NCBI GenBank assembly: GCA_029561505.1
Contig: JAKQXK010000166.1
Coordinates: 1 to 21,014, forward strand
Reading direction: 5' to 3'
Length of the DNA: 21,014 nucleotides
DNA from: Spirochaetota bacterium
GTDB taxonomy: Bacteria > Spirochaetota > Leptospiria > Turneriellales > Turneriellaceae
The notes under the pieces are model-generated. The model saw only the letters and a program-made list of their open reading frames with translations. It did not search any database and was not told the origin of the DNA. Below are positions 3,905-21,014 of this stretch, one piece after another (position 1 is the stretch's first letter; every line of letters starts with the position of its first letter). The position numbers were made by a program, and so were the translations under genes.

Positions 3905-3984
3905 TCTCTGGCAAAACGGCGGTTTCGTCGCGAAACAATTTCGCAATGCGTTTGACATGACGCATGCGCAGGGCAATTAGCCTC

Positions 3985-4938
3985 ATGGAAAATCTCGCAA
4001 CCGTCGTTGTGCTCGCCGTCTTCTTTCTGGTGCTGCGCATGTTTCGCATTATACCGATGCGCGCGCTCGCCGTAAAAGAAAGGCTGGGGGCGTTTAAAGG
4101 GGTTTTGAAGCCCGGCTTTCATTTTATAGTGCCTTTTATCGACCGCATAGCCTACGTGCACGATGCACGCGAGCAGGTAATCGACATACCGAAGCAGCGG
4201 TGCATCACCCGCGATAACGTTGAGGTCGATGTCGACGGCGTTGTTTACCTCAAGGTCGTCGATGCGCAGAAAGCGAGTTATGGCATCGGCAACTACCACG
4301 CCGCGGTGATCTCGCTGGCGCAGACGACCATGCGCTCTGAAATCGGCAAGATGGCACTCGACGATACCTTTCGCGAGCGCGACAAGATCAACGACAAGAT
4401 CGTTATGGAAATCGATAAAGCCTCTGAACCGTGGGGCATTAAGTTCATTCGCTACGAAATACGCACAATCGAACCTTCTGCCAACATGATGAACACCATG
4501 GAAAAGCAGATGGAAGCCGAACGCCAGAAACGCGCAGATATCACGCTCGCACAGGGCGAGAAGCAGGCGCGCATCAACGTGTCTGAGGGTGAAAAGCAGG
4601 CTGCGATCAATGTTTCAACGGGTGAAAAACAGAAGCGCATCAACGAAGCTGAAGGCCGCAGCAAAGAAATCACGCTGGTAGCCGAAGCGACGGCGAATGG
4701 CCTCAGGCGCATCGCGCAGGCAATCGGCCAACCCGGCGGCTCGTCGGCGGTGAAGATGCGTATCGTTGAACAGTTTCTCGAAGAATTCGGCAAAGTGCTC
4801 GCGCACTCTAAAGTCTCGGTCGTGCCTGGCCGCATCGCCGAGCTGCAGACCTATTTTCAGGGCCTCTCGACCCTCACCGGGCAGACGGCTGATGTCGCGA
4901 AAGCGGCGCAGCCACAACAACCAAGGAGCGCAAAATGA
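3985..4938 (+). CDS. SPFH/band-7 membrane scaffold protein (QmcA/slipin-like), first copy
   Basis: The protein has 317 residues from the ATG at 3985. An N-terminal membrane anchor (about 4-22, ATVVVLAVFFLVLRMF) is followed by the SPFH domain: IIPMRALAVKERLGAFKGVL, LKPGFHFIVPFIDRI, RCITRDNVEVDVDGVVYLKV and LDDTFRERDKINDKI, ending EPWGIKFIRYEIRTIEP. Residues 188-231 are four consecutive 11-residue repeats built on GEKQxxIN, which points to a long helical or hendecad coiled-coil region. A C-terminal region ends QQPRSAK. SPFH proteins oligomerise into membrane-bound rings or cages that organise membrane microdomains. An alternative ATG at 3964 would add seven residues without a better RBS. The stop overlaps the second SPFH gene by four bases. 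Confidence 0.92.
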   Translation: MENLATVVVLAVFFLVLRMFRIIPMRALAVKERLGAFKGVLKPGFHFIVPFIDRIAYVHDAREQVIDIPKQRCITRDNVEVDVDGVVYLKVVDAQKASYGIGNYHAAVISLAQTTMRSEIGKMALDDTFRERDKINDKIVMEIDKASEPWGIKFIRYEIRTIEPSANMMNTMEKQMEAERQKRADITLAQGEKQARINVSEGEKQAAINVSTGEKQKRINEAEGRSKEITLVAEATANGLRRIAQAIGQPGGSSAVKMRIVEQFLEEFGKVLAHSKVSVVPGRIAELQTYFQGLSTLTGQTADVAKAAQPQQPRSAK

Positions 4939-5861
4939 ATCCATTTGATATTATTGTCTGGGGCGGCATATTCGTCTATTTTCTCTTCAAGCTCGTGCGT
5001 TCGGTGCGCATTATTGAACCACGCAAAGCGGCGATTGTCGAGCGCCTGGGCAAGTACCACAAAACCCTGCTCAGCGGTTTTCATGTCATGGTGCCGTTTC
5101 TCGACAAGGTAACGTTTGATCAAGATCTGAAAGAAGAAGCGATGACGGTGCCGCCGCAAGACTGTTTCACGCACGACAACGTGAAGGTCGAGGTCGACGG
5201 CGTCATCTACATGATGGTCACCGACCCGATGCTCGCGAGCTATGGCGTAACCGATTTTCGCCAGGCGACCATTCAGCTGGCGCAAACAACGATTCGTTCA
5301 GTGATGGGTACGCTCGACCTCGACCGCACCTTTGAAGAGCGCGAGATGATTAACCAGAAAATCGTGAGCGTGCTTTCAGAAGTCGGCGAGACCTGGGGCA
5401 TTCGCGTGCTGCGCTATGAGATCAAGAACATCGTGCCGCCGGTTTCGGTGAAAAACGCGATGGAGCGCCAAATGACCGCAGAGCGCGAACGCCGCGCTCA
5501 GATTGCCCGCTCAGAAGGCGACATGCAGTCGAACATCAATAATTCAGAAGGCCTCATGACTGAACTCGTGAACCGCTCAGAGGGTGAAAAACAGCGACGC
5601 ATCAACGAGGCCGAAGGTCGCGCGAAAGAAATTGAAGCACTCGCCAACGCAACTGCGCAGGCGATCGAAGCGGTCGCTGCAGCGGTGCGCGAGCCAGGCG
5701 GCAACCAGGCAATGGCTTTGCGGTTGACCGAGTCATACCTCAGCAAACTTTCGGGCATTGCACGCAAAGACGCCACGGTGATTATTCCCTCTGACTTGAC
5801 GCGTCTAGACGAGCAGTTGGCGGCGCTGGGCCTCAAGTCATCGGCAAATAAAGAAAGTTGA
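4935..5861 (+). CDS. SPFH/band-7 membrane scaffold protein, second copy
   Basis: 308 residues, starting at an ATG that overlaps the previous stop and is preceded by a strong AAGGAG (4923-4928). The plan is the same as its neighbour: a short N-terminal hydrophobic anchor (IIVWGGIFVYFLFKLVRSV), then RIIEPRKAAIVERLGKYHKT, SGFHVMVPFLDKVTF, CFTHDNVKVEVDGVIYMMV and LDRTFEEREMINQKI, ending GETWGIRVLRYEIKNIVPP. Residues 193-236 contain four 11-residue repeats beginning SEG or AEG. The two proteins clearly arose by duplication but have diverged; for example LDDTFRERDKIN here reads LDRTFEEREMIN, and the C-termini differ. A tandem pair with NfeD suggests a hetero-oligomer comparable in principle to HflK/HflC. 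However, the closest sequence resemblance is to QmcA and slipins, and no adjacent FtsH protease is seen. Confidence 0.92.
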   Translation: MNPFDIIVWGGIFVYFLFKLVRSVRIIEPRKAAIVERLGKYHKTLLSGFHVMVPFLDKVTFDQDLKEEAMTVPPQDCFTHDNVKVEVDGVIYMMVTDPMLASYGVTDFRQATIQLAQTTIRSVMGTLDLDRTFEEREMINQKIVSVLSEVGETWGIRVLRYEIKNIVPPVSVKNAMERQMTAERERRAQIARSEGDMQSNINNSEGLMTELVNRSEGEKQRRINEAEGRAKEIEALANATAQAIEAVAAAVREPGGNQAMALRLTESYLSKLSGIARKDATVIIPSDLTRLDEQLAALGLKSSANKES

Positions 5862-15573: not shown

Positions 15574-15626
15574 TCCCCCTCCCGTCCTCCCCCGCGCGCG
15601 GGGGAGGTGCCGCAGGCGGAGGGGGA
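15574..15626. repeat. Palindromic repeat, family A, copy 2, overlapping an RBS
   Basis: The outer arms TCCCCCTCC (15574-15582) and GGAGGGGGA (15618-15626) are perfect inverted repeats. Inside is a second, perfect 22-base palindrome CCTCCCCCGCG/CGCGGGGGAGG (15586-15607). Read on the minus strand, its last bases are GGGAGGGGGA directly before the ATG at 15573, so the repeat provides the Shine-Dalgarno of the 835-aa protein while also able to hide it in a hairpin. It shares the C-rich/G-rich style, but not the CCTCACCCCC terminus, of the copies at 854-935 and 20048-20164. Confidence 0.7.
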
Positions 15627-15646
15627 CATCGACAAGAGGATTCTCG

Positions 15647-16603: not shown

Positions 16604-16646
16604 GGCTCCCGATTTCATAGGGCGAACGCGTCAGCAATGATTTTTA

Positions 16647-16689
16647 GTTTCCCTAAAACAGTGTGCGTAGCACACTGTTTTAGGGAAAC
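16647..16689. promoter_or_regulatory. Perfect 20-bp inverted repeat in divergent intergenic region
   Basis: GTTTCCCTAAAACAGTGTGC (16647-16666), loop GTA, and its exact reverse complement (16670-16689). It lies between the divergent MBL-fold and MarC-family genes. The right arm contains AGGG (16682-16685), the only Shine-Dalgarno-like bases before the MarC ATG at 16697, so a folded transcript would hide them. No T-run follows in either direction, so it does not look like an intrinsic terminator. It could be an RNA switch-like hairpin, an operator for a dimeric or multimeric repressor, or a small mobile repeat. The function is inference; the symmetry is seen directly. Confidence 0.7.
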
Positions 16690-16696
16690 GGCAGAC

Positions 16697-17284
16697 ATGG
16701 AAGATTTTTTACGCGCGATTATCGTGACGTTTATCCCCATTTTTGTCGCGACTGACGCGGTCGGCATTCTGCCCATTTTCGTCGGCATGACGCGTAAGCG
16801 CAAGGCTGCTGAGCGCCGCCGCATCGTCGCGCTTTCGATGGTAACTGCTTTTGCGCTGACGGCAATCTTCACCGTCATGGGTAAGGCAATTTTTCGCTTC
16901 ATGGGCATCACGGTGTTTGACTTCATGGTAGCGGGGGGAGTTATACTCTTCATTCTGGCAATTCTCGACGTCATGGGTGCGCGCCATAATCACGACGATG
17001 ACAGTGGCGCTATGGGCGTTGTGCCGCTGGGTACCCCCATGGTGGCCGGGCCGGCGTTGATTACTACCTGCGTGCTTATGGCGAATGAATATGGTTTTGC
17101 CGTGACGCTCATCTCGCTTGCGGTCAATATCACTATCGCTGGCTTGTTATTCTTGCAGGCCCCGCTTCTGACTAAGATTCTGGGTGACGAAGGTTCGGCC
17201 GCACTTTCAAAAATCACAAGTCTTTTGCTCGCTTCTATCGCCGTAATGATGGTGCGCCGCGGCGTGCTTTCGATGGTGAATTGA
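16697..17284 (+). CDS. MarC-family (UPF0056) integral membrane protein
   Basis: A 195-residue polytopic protein with six hydrophobic segments: AIIVTFIPIFVATDAVGILP, ALSMVTAFALTAIFTVMG, FDFMVAGGVILFILAILDVM, GTPMVAGPALITTCVLMAN, AVTLISLAVNITIAGLLFL and ITSLLLASIAVMMV. The paired DAVG-x-x-P and PLGTPMVAGPA motifs are diagnostic for MarC proteins. Members were once linked to multiple antibiotic resistance, but that role was not upheld; they may be small-molecule exporters, with unknown substrate. A histidine/aspartate-rich cytoplasmic loop (ARHNHDDDSGAM) lies between helices three and four. The ATG at 16697 was chosen because the family N-terminus is M-x-x-F-x-x-A-x-x-x-x-F-x-P-I-F; the longer frame from 16637 only translates the hairpin. 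Followed after 29 bp by a sugar dehydrogenase gene. Confidence 0.92.
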   Translation: MEDFLRAIIVTFIPIFVATDAVGILPIFVGMTRKRKAAERRRIVALSMVTAFALTAIFTVMGKAIFRFMGITVFDFMVAGGVILFILAILDVMGARHNHDDDSGAMGVVPLGTPMVAGPALITTCVLMANEYGFAVTLISLAVNITIAGLLFLQAPLLTKILGDEGSAALSKITSLLLASIAVMMVRRGVLSMVN

Positions 17285-19439: not shown

Positions 19440-21014
19440 TCAGAATTTCTTCACCTTCTCAATCTCACCCATGACGCGCGCTGTTTCCGTCAACGCGACA
19501 ATGATCTTCTGATAGTGCATGACATCGTCGGTGGTCAATGTTCGCCCTTTACGGTCTTTGAGCCACTTCTGCGCGGGCTGGTAGCCGCCGATATAGAACG
19601 ACCAGGCGACTTCAGGCACGTTGTCGAAGAACTGGTCTTTGTTGATAAAGACTTTGCCGAGACCTTTCGCCGTTGGTTCGAAGCTGATCTTCTCTACTTC
19701 GTTCGAGCCGCTGACGCTGAACTTTGTGATGGGCTTCGTCAGCTTCGGCGATTCCATGAGATGCAGTGCCCGCAATTCGCCACCGAGTTCAGCGAAGGCC
19801 CAGAATTCTTTGGCGCTGGTGGGGTATGGCACGCGTGGGAAGTCGATTTTCAGGAACTCTTTGTATTTCTCGCGGTAGTTGGGTGAGTGGAGAACGCCGT
19901 AGATGTAGTCGAGCAGATCGATTGGGGCGAAGGTTTTGGTGGGGCGTTTGCGGCGGTCGCTGAGCGCAGCCGAAGCGCCGTCGTCTTCGAATTTGAGGGC
20001 GATCTTTCCTGCGATGGCGGCAACGATTTCGGGGTTGAGGTTGGGGACCTCACCCCCCGGCCCCCTCTCCATTACATGGAGAGGGGGAGAAAGAGTATCT
20101 TTCCCTTTCGAACCCCGCGCTTTCGCTCCCCTCTCCACATTGTGGAGAGGGGTTGGGGGTGAGGCGCCAAACATGTCGGTGGGTTTGGATTCGGAGTAGA
20201 GGTAGAGGGGAGCTAATGAGTTAACCTCTTTGATGCTTAGTGAGTGAAGCTGCACGATATTATTGAACAAGAAAGCATCTGCAAACTGGCGGTCGCCTTC
20301 GATAGTGCGAGTTAAGGTCAATGCAATGTTATTACGATTAAGCAAATGCTGCATGATTTTTCGCTGTGGACTTGCATAGAGGCCGCGAGAATTTCCCGTA
20401 TAGAAAGTCATTCTGTTGTCAAATGGCCTGTATGCGCAAGTTGTCGGTCTTACGATCTGTATGTTAGCTATTGCATCTTTTTTAGCTGTTGGTACTGTCC
20501 AGTCGCGGGCATCTTTGTCGCCCAATGAAAACTTATTACGTATTTCAGCCTCAGTTTCAGTCACGATGAAATTGATATTTTGCATCAACTCTTTTTCTGT
20601 AAATCCGACGTTAATCGAATCTCGCGCTGTAACAAACCCTATTGTCATTTCGGGAAATAACAGCTGAAGATTAATACCCGCATCGTATTCAGTACGGCCT
20701 TCAATACTTATCCCAGAAAAAAAGAAAAAAGGCGCGTCGGGTTTAATCCGCTCAAATTTTGTCGAACCAAGAGCACGTTTTATGAGAATTGAATTTTTCT
20801 TTTCTCGTTCACCCCACAAATCAAGACGGTGAACATTACCAAGAACATCTTTTTTCTTTTTACCAGTTTTAACCAACAAGATTATCGCCACCCCCTGCTG
20901 AATATCGAAAACGTTCTCGTCGTTTGACCCATCAGGGGTTCTCTCTTTCTTCTTAGAGTTGCCATGCAAATCTAGCACATAAATCTTGTCAAAGGTCTTC
21001 AATAAATGCCAGCG
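19440..21014 (-). CDS. Type ISP restriction-modification enzyme, C-terminal part (cut by right edge)
   Basis: The frame is open to the window edge (Arg-Trp-His-Leu precede the TTG at 21002), so about 524 C-terminal residues of a much larger protein are visible. KTFDKIYVLDLHGNSKKKE, PDGSNDENVFDIQQGVAI and FFFFSGI are the segment that follows the NPPY methylase motif in single-chain Type ISP/IIG enzymes. RPFDNRMTFYTGNSRGLY begins the DNA-recognition half, and the end (FAPIDLLDYIYGVLHSPNYR, FLKIDFPRVPYP, KGRTLTTDDVMHYQKIIVAL) matches the Type ISP C-terminal domain. Such enzymes combine nuclease, helicase-like ATPase, adenine methylase and target recognition and restrict foreign DNA. Oddities: a 39-codon palindromic insertion (20048-20164), a second repeat-like stretch (19955-19977), and a change from AT-rich (upstream half) to GC-rich (downstream half). 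The reading frame is intact throughout the visible part. Confidence 0.9.
   Translation of the reverse strand, partial: RWHLLKTFDKIYVLDLHGNSKKKERTPDGSNDENVFDIQQGVAIILLVKTGKKKKDVLGNVHRLDLWGEREKKNSILIKRALGSTKFERIKPDAPFFFFSGISIEGRTEYDAGINLQLLFPEMTIGFVTARDSINVGFTEKELMQNINFIVTETEAEIRNKFSLGDKDARDWTVPTAKKDAIANIQIVRPTTCAYRPFDNRMTFYTGNSRGLYASPQRKIMQHLLNRNNIALTLTRTIEGDRQFADAFLFNNIVQLHSLSIKEVNSLAPLYLYSESKPTDMFGASPPTPLHNVERGAKARGSKGKDTLSPPLHVMERGPGGEVPNLNPEIVAAIAGKIALKFEDDGASAALSDRRKRPTKTFAPIDLLDYIYGVLHSPNYREKYKEFLKIDFPRVPYPTSAKEFWAFAELGGELRALHLMESPKLTKPITKFSVSGSNEVEKISFEPTAKGLGKVFINKDQFFDNVPEVAWSFYIGGYQPAQKWLKDRKGRTLTTDDVMHYQKIIVALTETARVMGEIEKVKKF
19955..19977 (-). repeat. CTTCGGC-type repeat core, family B, inside the Type ISP coding frame
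   Basis: The minus strand reads CGCTTCGGCTGCGCTCAGCG followed by ACC, close to the CTTCGAC-xx-GCTCA core of the repeat at 8262-8275 and its remnant at 1536-1555. It encodes GASAALSDRR between KFEDD and the conserved FAPIDLLDY, a place where I would expect a shorter loop. The resemblance is short, so the call is tentative. Confidence 0.4.
20048..20164 (-). repeat. 117-bp palindromic element, family A, copy 3, inserted in frame in a gene
   Basis: The ends are perfect 10-base inverted repeats, CCTCACCCCC (20048-20057) and GGGGGTGAGG (20155-20164). Inside are two hairpins: CCCCCTCTCCAT/ATGGAGAGGGGG with loop TAC (20061-20087), and CCCCTCTCCACA/TGTGGAGAGGGG around one T (20128-20152). The length of 117 bp is exactly 39 codons, without a stop in the gene's frame. 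It encodes roughly ASPPTPLHNVERGAK..., then ...LSPPLHVMERGPGGE, so the two hairpins give two similar peptides (SPP-x-LH-x-V/M-ERG). It lies between YLYSESKPTDMF and PNLNPEIVAAIAG. Confidence 0.85.

Follow-up and report, generated by a model that had tools for sequence, protein, structure and literature searches.

An in-frame palindromic element in a spirochaetal Type ISP restriction enzyme gene and related units flanking DUF559 nuclease genes

Why does a gene for a restriction enzyme carry a DNA palindrome within its reading frame, and by what means did this palindrome arrive there? The question is raised by a contig of a spirochaete of the family Turneriellaceae. The window, i.e. the whole stretch of 21,014 nucleotides that was analysed, is the entire contig C308 of a draft metagenome-type assembly (722 contigs, 83% complete), and the N-terminal part of the gene is therefore missing. 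The following features of the window are relevant here. Units were scored with R1, a covariance model of one unit built from 29 sequences, and the two units of the element belong to the alignment of R1 itself, which applies to both of their scores.

19440 to 21014, minus strand: Type ISP restriction-modification enzyme, C-terminal 524 amino acids, cut by the contig end (Pfam PF18135, Type_ISP_C)
20048 to 20164, no strand assigned: 117-bp palindromic element, made of two hairpin units in inverted orientation and bounded by 10-bp terminal inverted repeats, with 39 minus-strand codons
20048 to 20087, plus strand: left unit, consisting of the tag CCTCACCCCC and a hairpin (R1 64 bits, E 5.4e-14)
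20128 to 20164, minus strand: right unit, inverted (R1 57.9 bits, E 1.6e-12)
857 to 932, no strand assigned: diverged intergenic relative of the element (R1 889-932, E 1.1e-4; 857-878, E 1.4e-3)

Results and discussion

Structure of the element

An earlier note on this DNA had described a 117-bp element with 10-bp terminal inverted repeats and two hairpins, and this description was confirmed. Its ends are exact inverted 10-mers (CCTCACCCCC, 20048-20057; GGGGGTGAGG, 20155-20164), and two hairpins with CCCCTCTCC/GGAGAGGGG stems lie between them. The plus-strand DNA of positions 20038-20174 folds with -47 kcal/mol in comparison to a shuffle mean of -22.86 (z -8.27), and none of 200 shuffles was as stable. 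The tag occurs four times in the window, where 0.16 matches are expected, a number reached by 0 of 100 shuffles. A search of the window against Rfam gave 0 matches. The minus-strand frame is open across the element, whose 117 bp correspond to 39 codons (about residues 284-323 of 524), and the encoded peptides include SPPTPLHNVERG and SPPLHVMERG, which are the two similar SPPxLHxxERG peptides noted before. The related non-coding copy, formerly placed at 854-935, is likewise real; it is diverged and intergenic at 857-932.

Three other regions of the window were noticed. A GC-rich palindrome at 15575-15627 (R1 9.6 bits, E 0.44) is perhaps a decayed relative of the element. A perfect 20-bp inverted repeat with a 3-base loop (16647-16689) is located at the start of the frame 16637-17284, and an adjacent pair of similar genes with repeats in common, which presumably encode SPFH/PHB-domain proteins, occupies 3964-5861.

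The linker of the Type ISP enzyme

The specificity domain Type_ISP_C was matched by residues 119-516 of the 524 residues (E 6.7e-85), and this match spans the element. The gene had been called otherwise intact, which can be judged for these C-terminal 524 residues only, as the contig end cuts the gene. The linker between the motifs PLYLY and PNLN comprises 50 residues, about 11 of which look host-derived. Of 485 confirmed Type ISP homologues the best 80, all of them named, were compared; the median length of their linker is 16 residues and 77 of the 80 possess at most 29, while the three longer ones (96-101 residues) contain unrelated sequence. The alignment with homologues proposed in the earlier note thus supported an insertion, and the same 39 residues without DNA palindromy were not seen outside the genus among these best 80. 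Of the claim that exactly 39 sense codons were added, the open 117-bp frame stands, and how much longer the host linker became on balance is less certain than the 39 codons of the element itself.

One homologue of the same genus (L114), whose downstream protein is nearly identical to that of the window, has an element-like stretch at the window's insertion point, as judged by eye, and is the only such case among the best 80 of 485. A divergent Type ISP gene of genome G006 contains another element within the same linker, and palindromic sequence is present in this linker in three Type ISP genes of the genus. The Type ISP homologue of Algoriphagus ratkowskyi (L164) showed a palindrome-type peptide, LTPNPSPEGDG, elsewhere in the same region.

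An AlphaFold model of the host protein (35 sequences, mean pLDDT 84.6) gave a pLDDT below 50 for residues 284-314 between confident segments, and the insert is thus modelled as a disordered loop. Of the two effects suggested earlier, a tolerated spacer is favoured by this model, and no result supported a tuning of specificity. An adaptive role of the insert within the enzyme, by which it tunes DNA specificity or regulates the mRNA through its hairpins, is very improbable. Its location in the specificity domain, a very stable RNA hairpin (-77.7 kcal/mol) and the recurrence in the linkers of three Type ISP genes would agree with such a role, but the linkers of 77 of the 80 homologues are short, the loop is modelled as disordered, and the same element is found in unrelated proteins.

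Dispersal in the genome and the genus

The element is dispersed, and further copies in the same genome, for which the earlier note had asked, were found. A second full-length copy (C148:11997-12119, 123 bp, 78% identity to the full 117 bases) lies in frame within a gene with a Methyltransf_30 domain, which we take to be an MnmC-like methyltransferase. The third, from G004 (123 bp), is in frame in an Lhr-type helicase. All three in-gene copies have the same orientation and phase and encode SPPxPLHxVERG; three further full-length copies (118, 112 and 120 bp) are intergenic.

A search of 61 genomes with the element DNA, in which 14 candidates were scored in three of the genomes, gave matches in 7/7 genomes of the genus and in 2/54 others. 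With R1 (E <= 1e-3), at least 77 sites were detected in four genomes of the genus (G000, 10; G004, 38; G005, 19; G006, 10). This is a lower bound, since 150 candidates were scored per genome and the 857-932 copy is outside that set. No target-site duplication was found: a 2-3 bp match was present at 8 of 53 elements in comparison to about 4 expected. A protein search with 47 residues of the element gave one match, the glycosyltransferase P0001, which carries three consecutive element-type peptides at its C-terminal end; a gene end in G006 (L079) resembles that of this glycosyltransferase.

That the segment is native to Type ISP enzymes and conserved in them, or that it arose as an artefact of assembly, has a negligible probability. 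An artefact might be suspected in a draft metagenome-type assembly of 722 contigs and 83% completeness, but the segment is missing in the homologues, similar DNA (78% identity) occurs in an unrelated gene, and copies are also present in a relative with 2 contigs and 99% completeness. It is nearly certain that the element of the window is a dispersed palindrome inserted in frame. The observation of the earlier note as a whole is thus confirmed, including its likeness to the behaviour of Rickettsia palindromic elements with a different sequence. Its interpretation is partly supported; the nuclease gene which lies between such units in related loci had been missed.

Insertion into coding frames of unrelated genes

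For the 77 R1 sites 76 loci were fetched, as two sites of G006 share one locus. At 31 of the 76 loci the copy is located within an open frame of at least 200 codons and at a distance of 30 or more codons from its ends, in comparison to 1047 of 1520 segments drawn at random from the same loci (69%). Copies are therefore depleted in frames, and those which keep the frame are survivors. An in-frame insertion with Pfam domains or homologues on both sides was recognized at 15 of the 76 loci, a strict count which leaves out frames with a domain on one side or none. The hosts are UvrC, RecQ, MnmA, Fmt, DUF4007, Lhr, LeuRS, an MptE-like protein, acyl-CoA dehydrogenase, MetH, Type ISP (three, two of which are parts of one split gene), an HsdR/methylase fusion and an MnmC-like gene.

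The copy in MnmA interrupts the HUP domain between positions 38 and 41 of its profile. The site in the MnmC-like gene holds a short remnant in G004 and a longer variant in G001, whereas about 14 host residues are present there in G003, G005 and G006; the insertion therefore replaced host sequence, or the loss came after it. Even among copies that keep the frame, some elements with automatically set ends have lengths not divisible by three, and small changes at the junctions are therefore likely.

DUF559 genes between inverted units

The Vsr-like nuclease DUF559 (PF04480) was detected in 6 of 14 genomes searched (G000, 2; G001, 3; G005, 1 fragment; G006, G009 and G057, 1 each). No match at E <= 0.001 was obtained in G002, G003 and G004, and among the 14 genomes DUF559 was also absent from G008, G010, G011, G012 and G019. 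At three loci (L297, L298 and L303) R1 units directly flank the DUF559 gene on both sides in inverted orientation. The locus of G057 (L299) has a unit on each side, one of which is weak. One unit adjoins the gene at L302 (inverted-flank score 18.5) and another the fragment at L301. L296 and L300 have distant or weak R1 matches only, and L296, the own-genome copy, is without a close inverted pair (score 8.0). The locus L304 ends at a contig end.

One cassette was inserted as a single in-frame piece. Residues 457-697 and 848-1027 of the Type ISP protein of G006 align with residues 1-241 and 242-421 of the homologue L096, and the insert between them consists of 150 in-frame codons, namely a unit, DUF559 and an inverted unit. 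The alignment to L096 is contiguous, so the host gained 150 codons and kept all its own residues. This gene is additionally interrupted by an unrelated frame of about 1 kb (L283/L284, G006:C8 about 21691-22735), presumably a DUF1016-type nuclease, and the host is therefore probably not intact. Two HsdM proteins (L334 and L340, 67% identical) carry DUF559 at differing points, and each has a palindrome-like short stretch at the point used in the other.

An alignment of 29 DUF559 proteins, among them the cassette copies, shows no variation at D71, E82 and H88 (in L303 numbering). A PDB sequence search with DUF559 gave 3HRL as the sole match. A fold search with the predicted model (mean pLDDT 82) likewise gave 3HRL as best match, the only one with E below 0.001, followed by the homing endonuclease I-Bth0305I and, more weakly, by AbaSI/PvuRts1I and Vsr. 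The name DUF559 is rare in the literature searched; a paper on Caulobacter VsrA is, in the portion available, among those which use it (PMC12907096). A link between DUF559 and palindromic units was not found in this literature, which mostly excludes subscription journals.

The explanation which we consider probable is as follows. The 117-bp element would be a non-autonomous mobile element of REPIN-like build, a spacer between two inverted hairpin units, and would have been inserted in frame into the Type ISP specificity domain at a flexible linker. It may have been kept because it is stop-free in that frame and merely lengthens a disordered loop. The cassette in which the same terminal units enclose the DUF559 gene is probably the autonomous form; the short elements would be copies without this gene, and the 117-bp form may descend from the cassette. 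That DUF559 cassettes are autonomous relatives of the short elements is likely. We hypothesize that the nuclease moves the elements, for example by cutting the hairpin ends or the target DNA.

This hypothesis is weakened by the loci without inverted flanks and by G004, which has the most R1 sites of the genomes counted (at least 38), yet no DUF559 match. The palindromes could instead move by a Y1/IS200-type transposase acting in trans or by replication template switching at hairpins, and DUF559 would then be a passenger between two units. We regard this as rather unlikely. G004 does possess three IS200-type TnpA genes besides its numerous sites, and many other palindromic repeats are tied to Y1 transposases according to passages of PMC3116915. 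However, the Y1 genes of these genomes have their own, different palindromes at their ends (eight loci inspected) and are classified by score as IS200/IS605, falling short of the cut-off of the REP-associated model. The 12 Y1_Tnp loci showed one unit place in total, about 1.4 kb from the gene, and G000 (83% complete) has 0 Y1_Tnp matches but two of DUF559. The recurrence of enclosed DUF559 genes in four phyla with different ends also argues against a passenger. On the flanks of the Y1_Tnp loci, RAYT or IS200 was rejected as partner of the element. IS200/IS605-type transposase genes of the genus (L084, L085 and L090-L094) lie between palindromes of their own, e.g. GGGTTTAAACCC.

DUF559 loci beyond the genus

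DUF559 was detected in 49 of 392 genomes of Spirochaetota (96 matches, E <= 1e-10). Flanks were analysed at 34 loci (28 from this survey and another six from the genus and G057); 32 of them had full 150-bp flanks. The inverted-repeat flanks of 23 of these 32 exceeded the 95th percentile of 183 shifted control windows, 12 exceeded their maximum, and nine were at or below the 95th percentile. Nine of the 96 matches are in frames of more than 500 codons. Seven of these nine are restriction-modification genes (HsdR, three HsdM, an N6_N4 methylase, an Eco57I/MmeI-type methylase and Type ISP); in the remaining two, DUF559 is at the N-terminal end of other frames. The inverted-flank scores of the seven (22.5, 22.0, 19.5, 18.0, 11.5, 9.5 and 9.0) thus indicate clear DNA palindromes in four.

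Among 12 hand-chosen plasmid records (of 39), six had DUF559 flanks above all 96 controls (maximum 17.5), namely Deinococcus psychrotolerans (57), D. proteolyticus (48.5), Sphingobium (26), Sphingomonas parapaucimobilis (26), Azospirillum lipoferum (25.5) and Pseudanabaena (24). Synechocystis (12.5) and Picosynechococcus (12) remained under the maximum, and inverted flanks were absent in the records of A. brasilense, Sinorhizobium, Photobacterium and E. coli. The cassette lies between paaD and paaZ in D. psychrotolerans and between sufB and sufC in S. parapaucimobilis. Enclosure of DUF559 by inverted repeats was thus found in four phyla, with differing end sequences.

In G065 an exact end pattern occurs 69 times, the reversed control 0 times, and seven DUF559 matches are also present in this genome. 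One short element of this genome (L389) contains a DUF559-like sequence (48.3 bits in comparison to at most 34.0 in 360 shuffles); it is the only one of 18 short G065 elements with a remnant above all shuffles. Palindrome-type peptides in the tails of DUF559 proteins, searched with a loose pattern, were a weak finding (7 of 38 database proteins). No relative was found in the viral contigs searched for DUF559.

These data are compatible with a widespread class of mobile elements in bacteria, which we propose tentatively, putting its chance somewhat below even. In such a class the palindrome-enclosed DUF559 nuclease would be the mobilising enzyme, and the cassette would enter reading frames, strikingly often those of restriction-modification genes, and would shed short REP-like palindromes which become in-frame peptides in ordinary proteins. 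DUF559 might then be the missing partner of palindromic repeats for which no transposase is known.

Comparison with known systems

Rickettsia palindromic elements are short palindromic DNA found in frame in unrelated protein genes, according to the accessible parts of PMC10969869 and PMC3733652. The element of the window resembles them, as it is palindromic and in frame in several unrelated genes (15 of 76 loci), but belongs to another lineage, differs in its end sequences as judged by eye, and has a link to a nuclease gene which is proposed here.

Two palindromic units in inverted orientation with a spacer between them are a feature shared with the REP/REPIN elements that have a RAYT transposase, as far as the consulted sections of PMC3116915 describe them. 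In contrast to the REPIN-RAYT system, none of the four genes tested here was above the model cut-off as a RAYT-type gene, and the units do not flank a REP-associated tyrosine transposase (12 Y1_Tnp loci, one distant unit). The ends are CCTCACC/GGTGAGG, and many copies lie within coding frames.

Several species carry intragenic GTAG and CGTC REPs in frame in DNA repair and tRNA genes, and in this 2013 survey CGTC REPs, whose hosts include Spirochaetes, seem to be without a dedicated transposase (PMC3733652, available portion). Both these REPs and the present units are thus found in frame in genes, but the tags differ, and the main text of PMC3733652 contains neither CTCACC nor GTGAGG, 'restriction' or DUF559.

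As in MITEs, many dispersed, short and non-autonomous copies with terminal inverted repeats are present. The differences are the missing target-site duplication and the proposed partner, a nuclease and not a DDE or Y1 transposase. An internal deletion of a fuller element, as in MITEs, would be reflected in the DUF559 remnant of one of 18 short G065 elements. The EDxHD/Vsr-like homing endonuclease I-Bth0305I has a fold similar to that predicted for the nuclease, but the cassette described here occupies many unrelated sites and kept the frame in the case tested.

An in-frame palindrome as such is already known in kind, since in-frame Rickettsia palindromic elements and intragenic REPs have been described in the source portions cited above. 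New is that the same units, inverted, flank DUF559 nuclease genes. With a nuclease gene between the units, the entry of short palindromes into reading frames and the movement of those which lack a transposase become testable questions. If the proposed relation is true, it would give DUF559 genes a role and account for the presence of some of them within restriction-modification genes.
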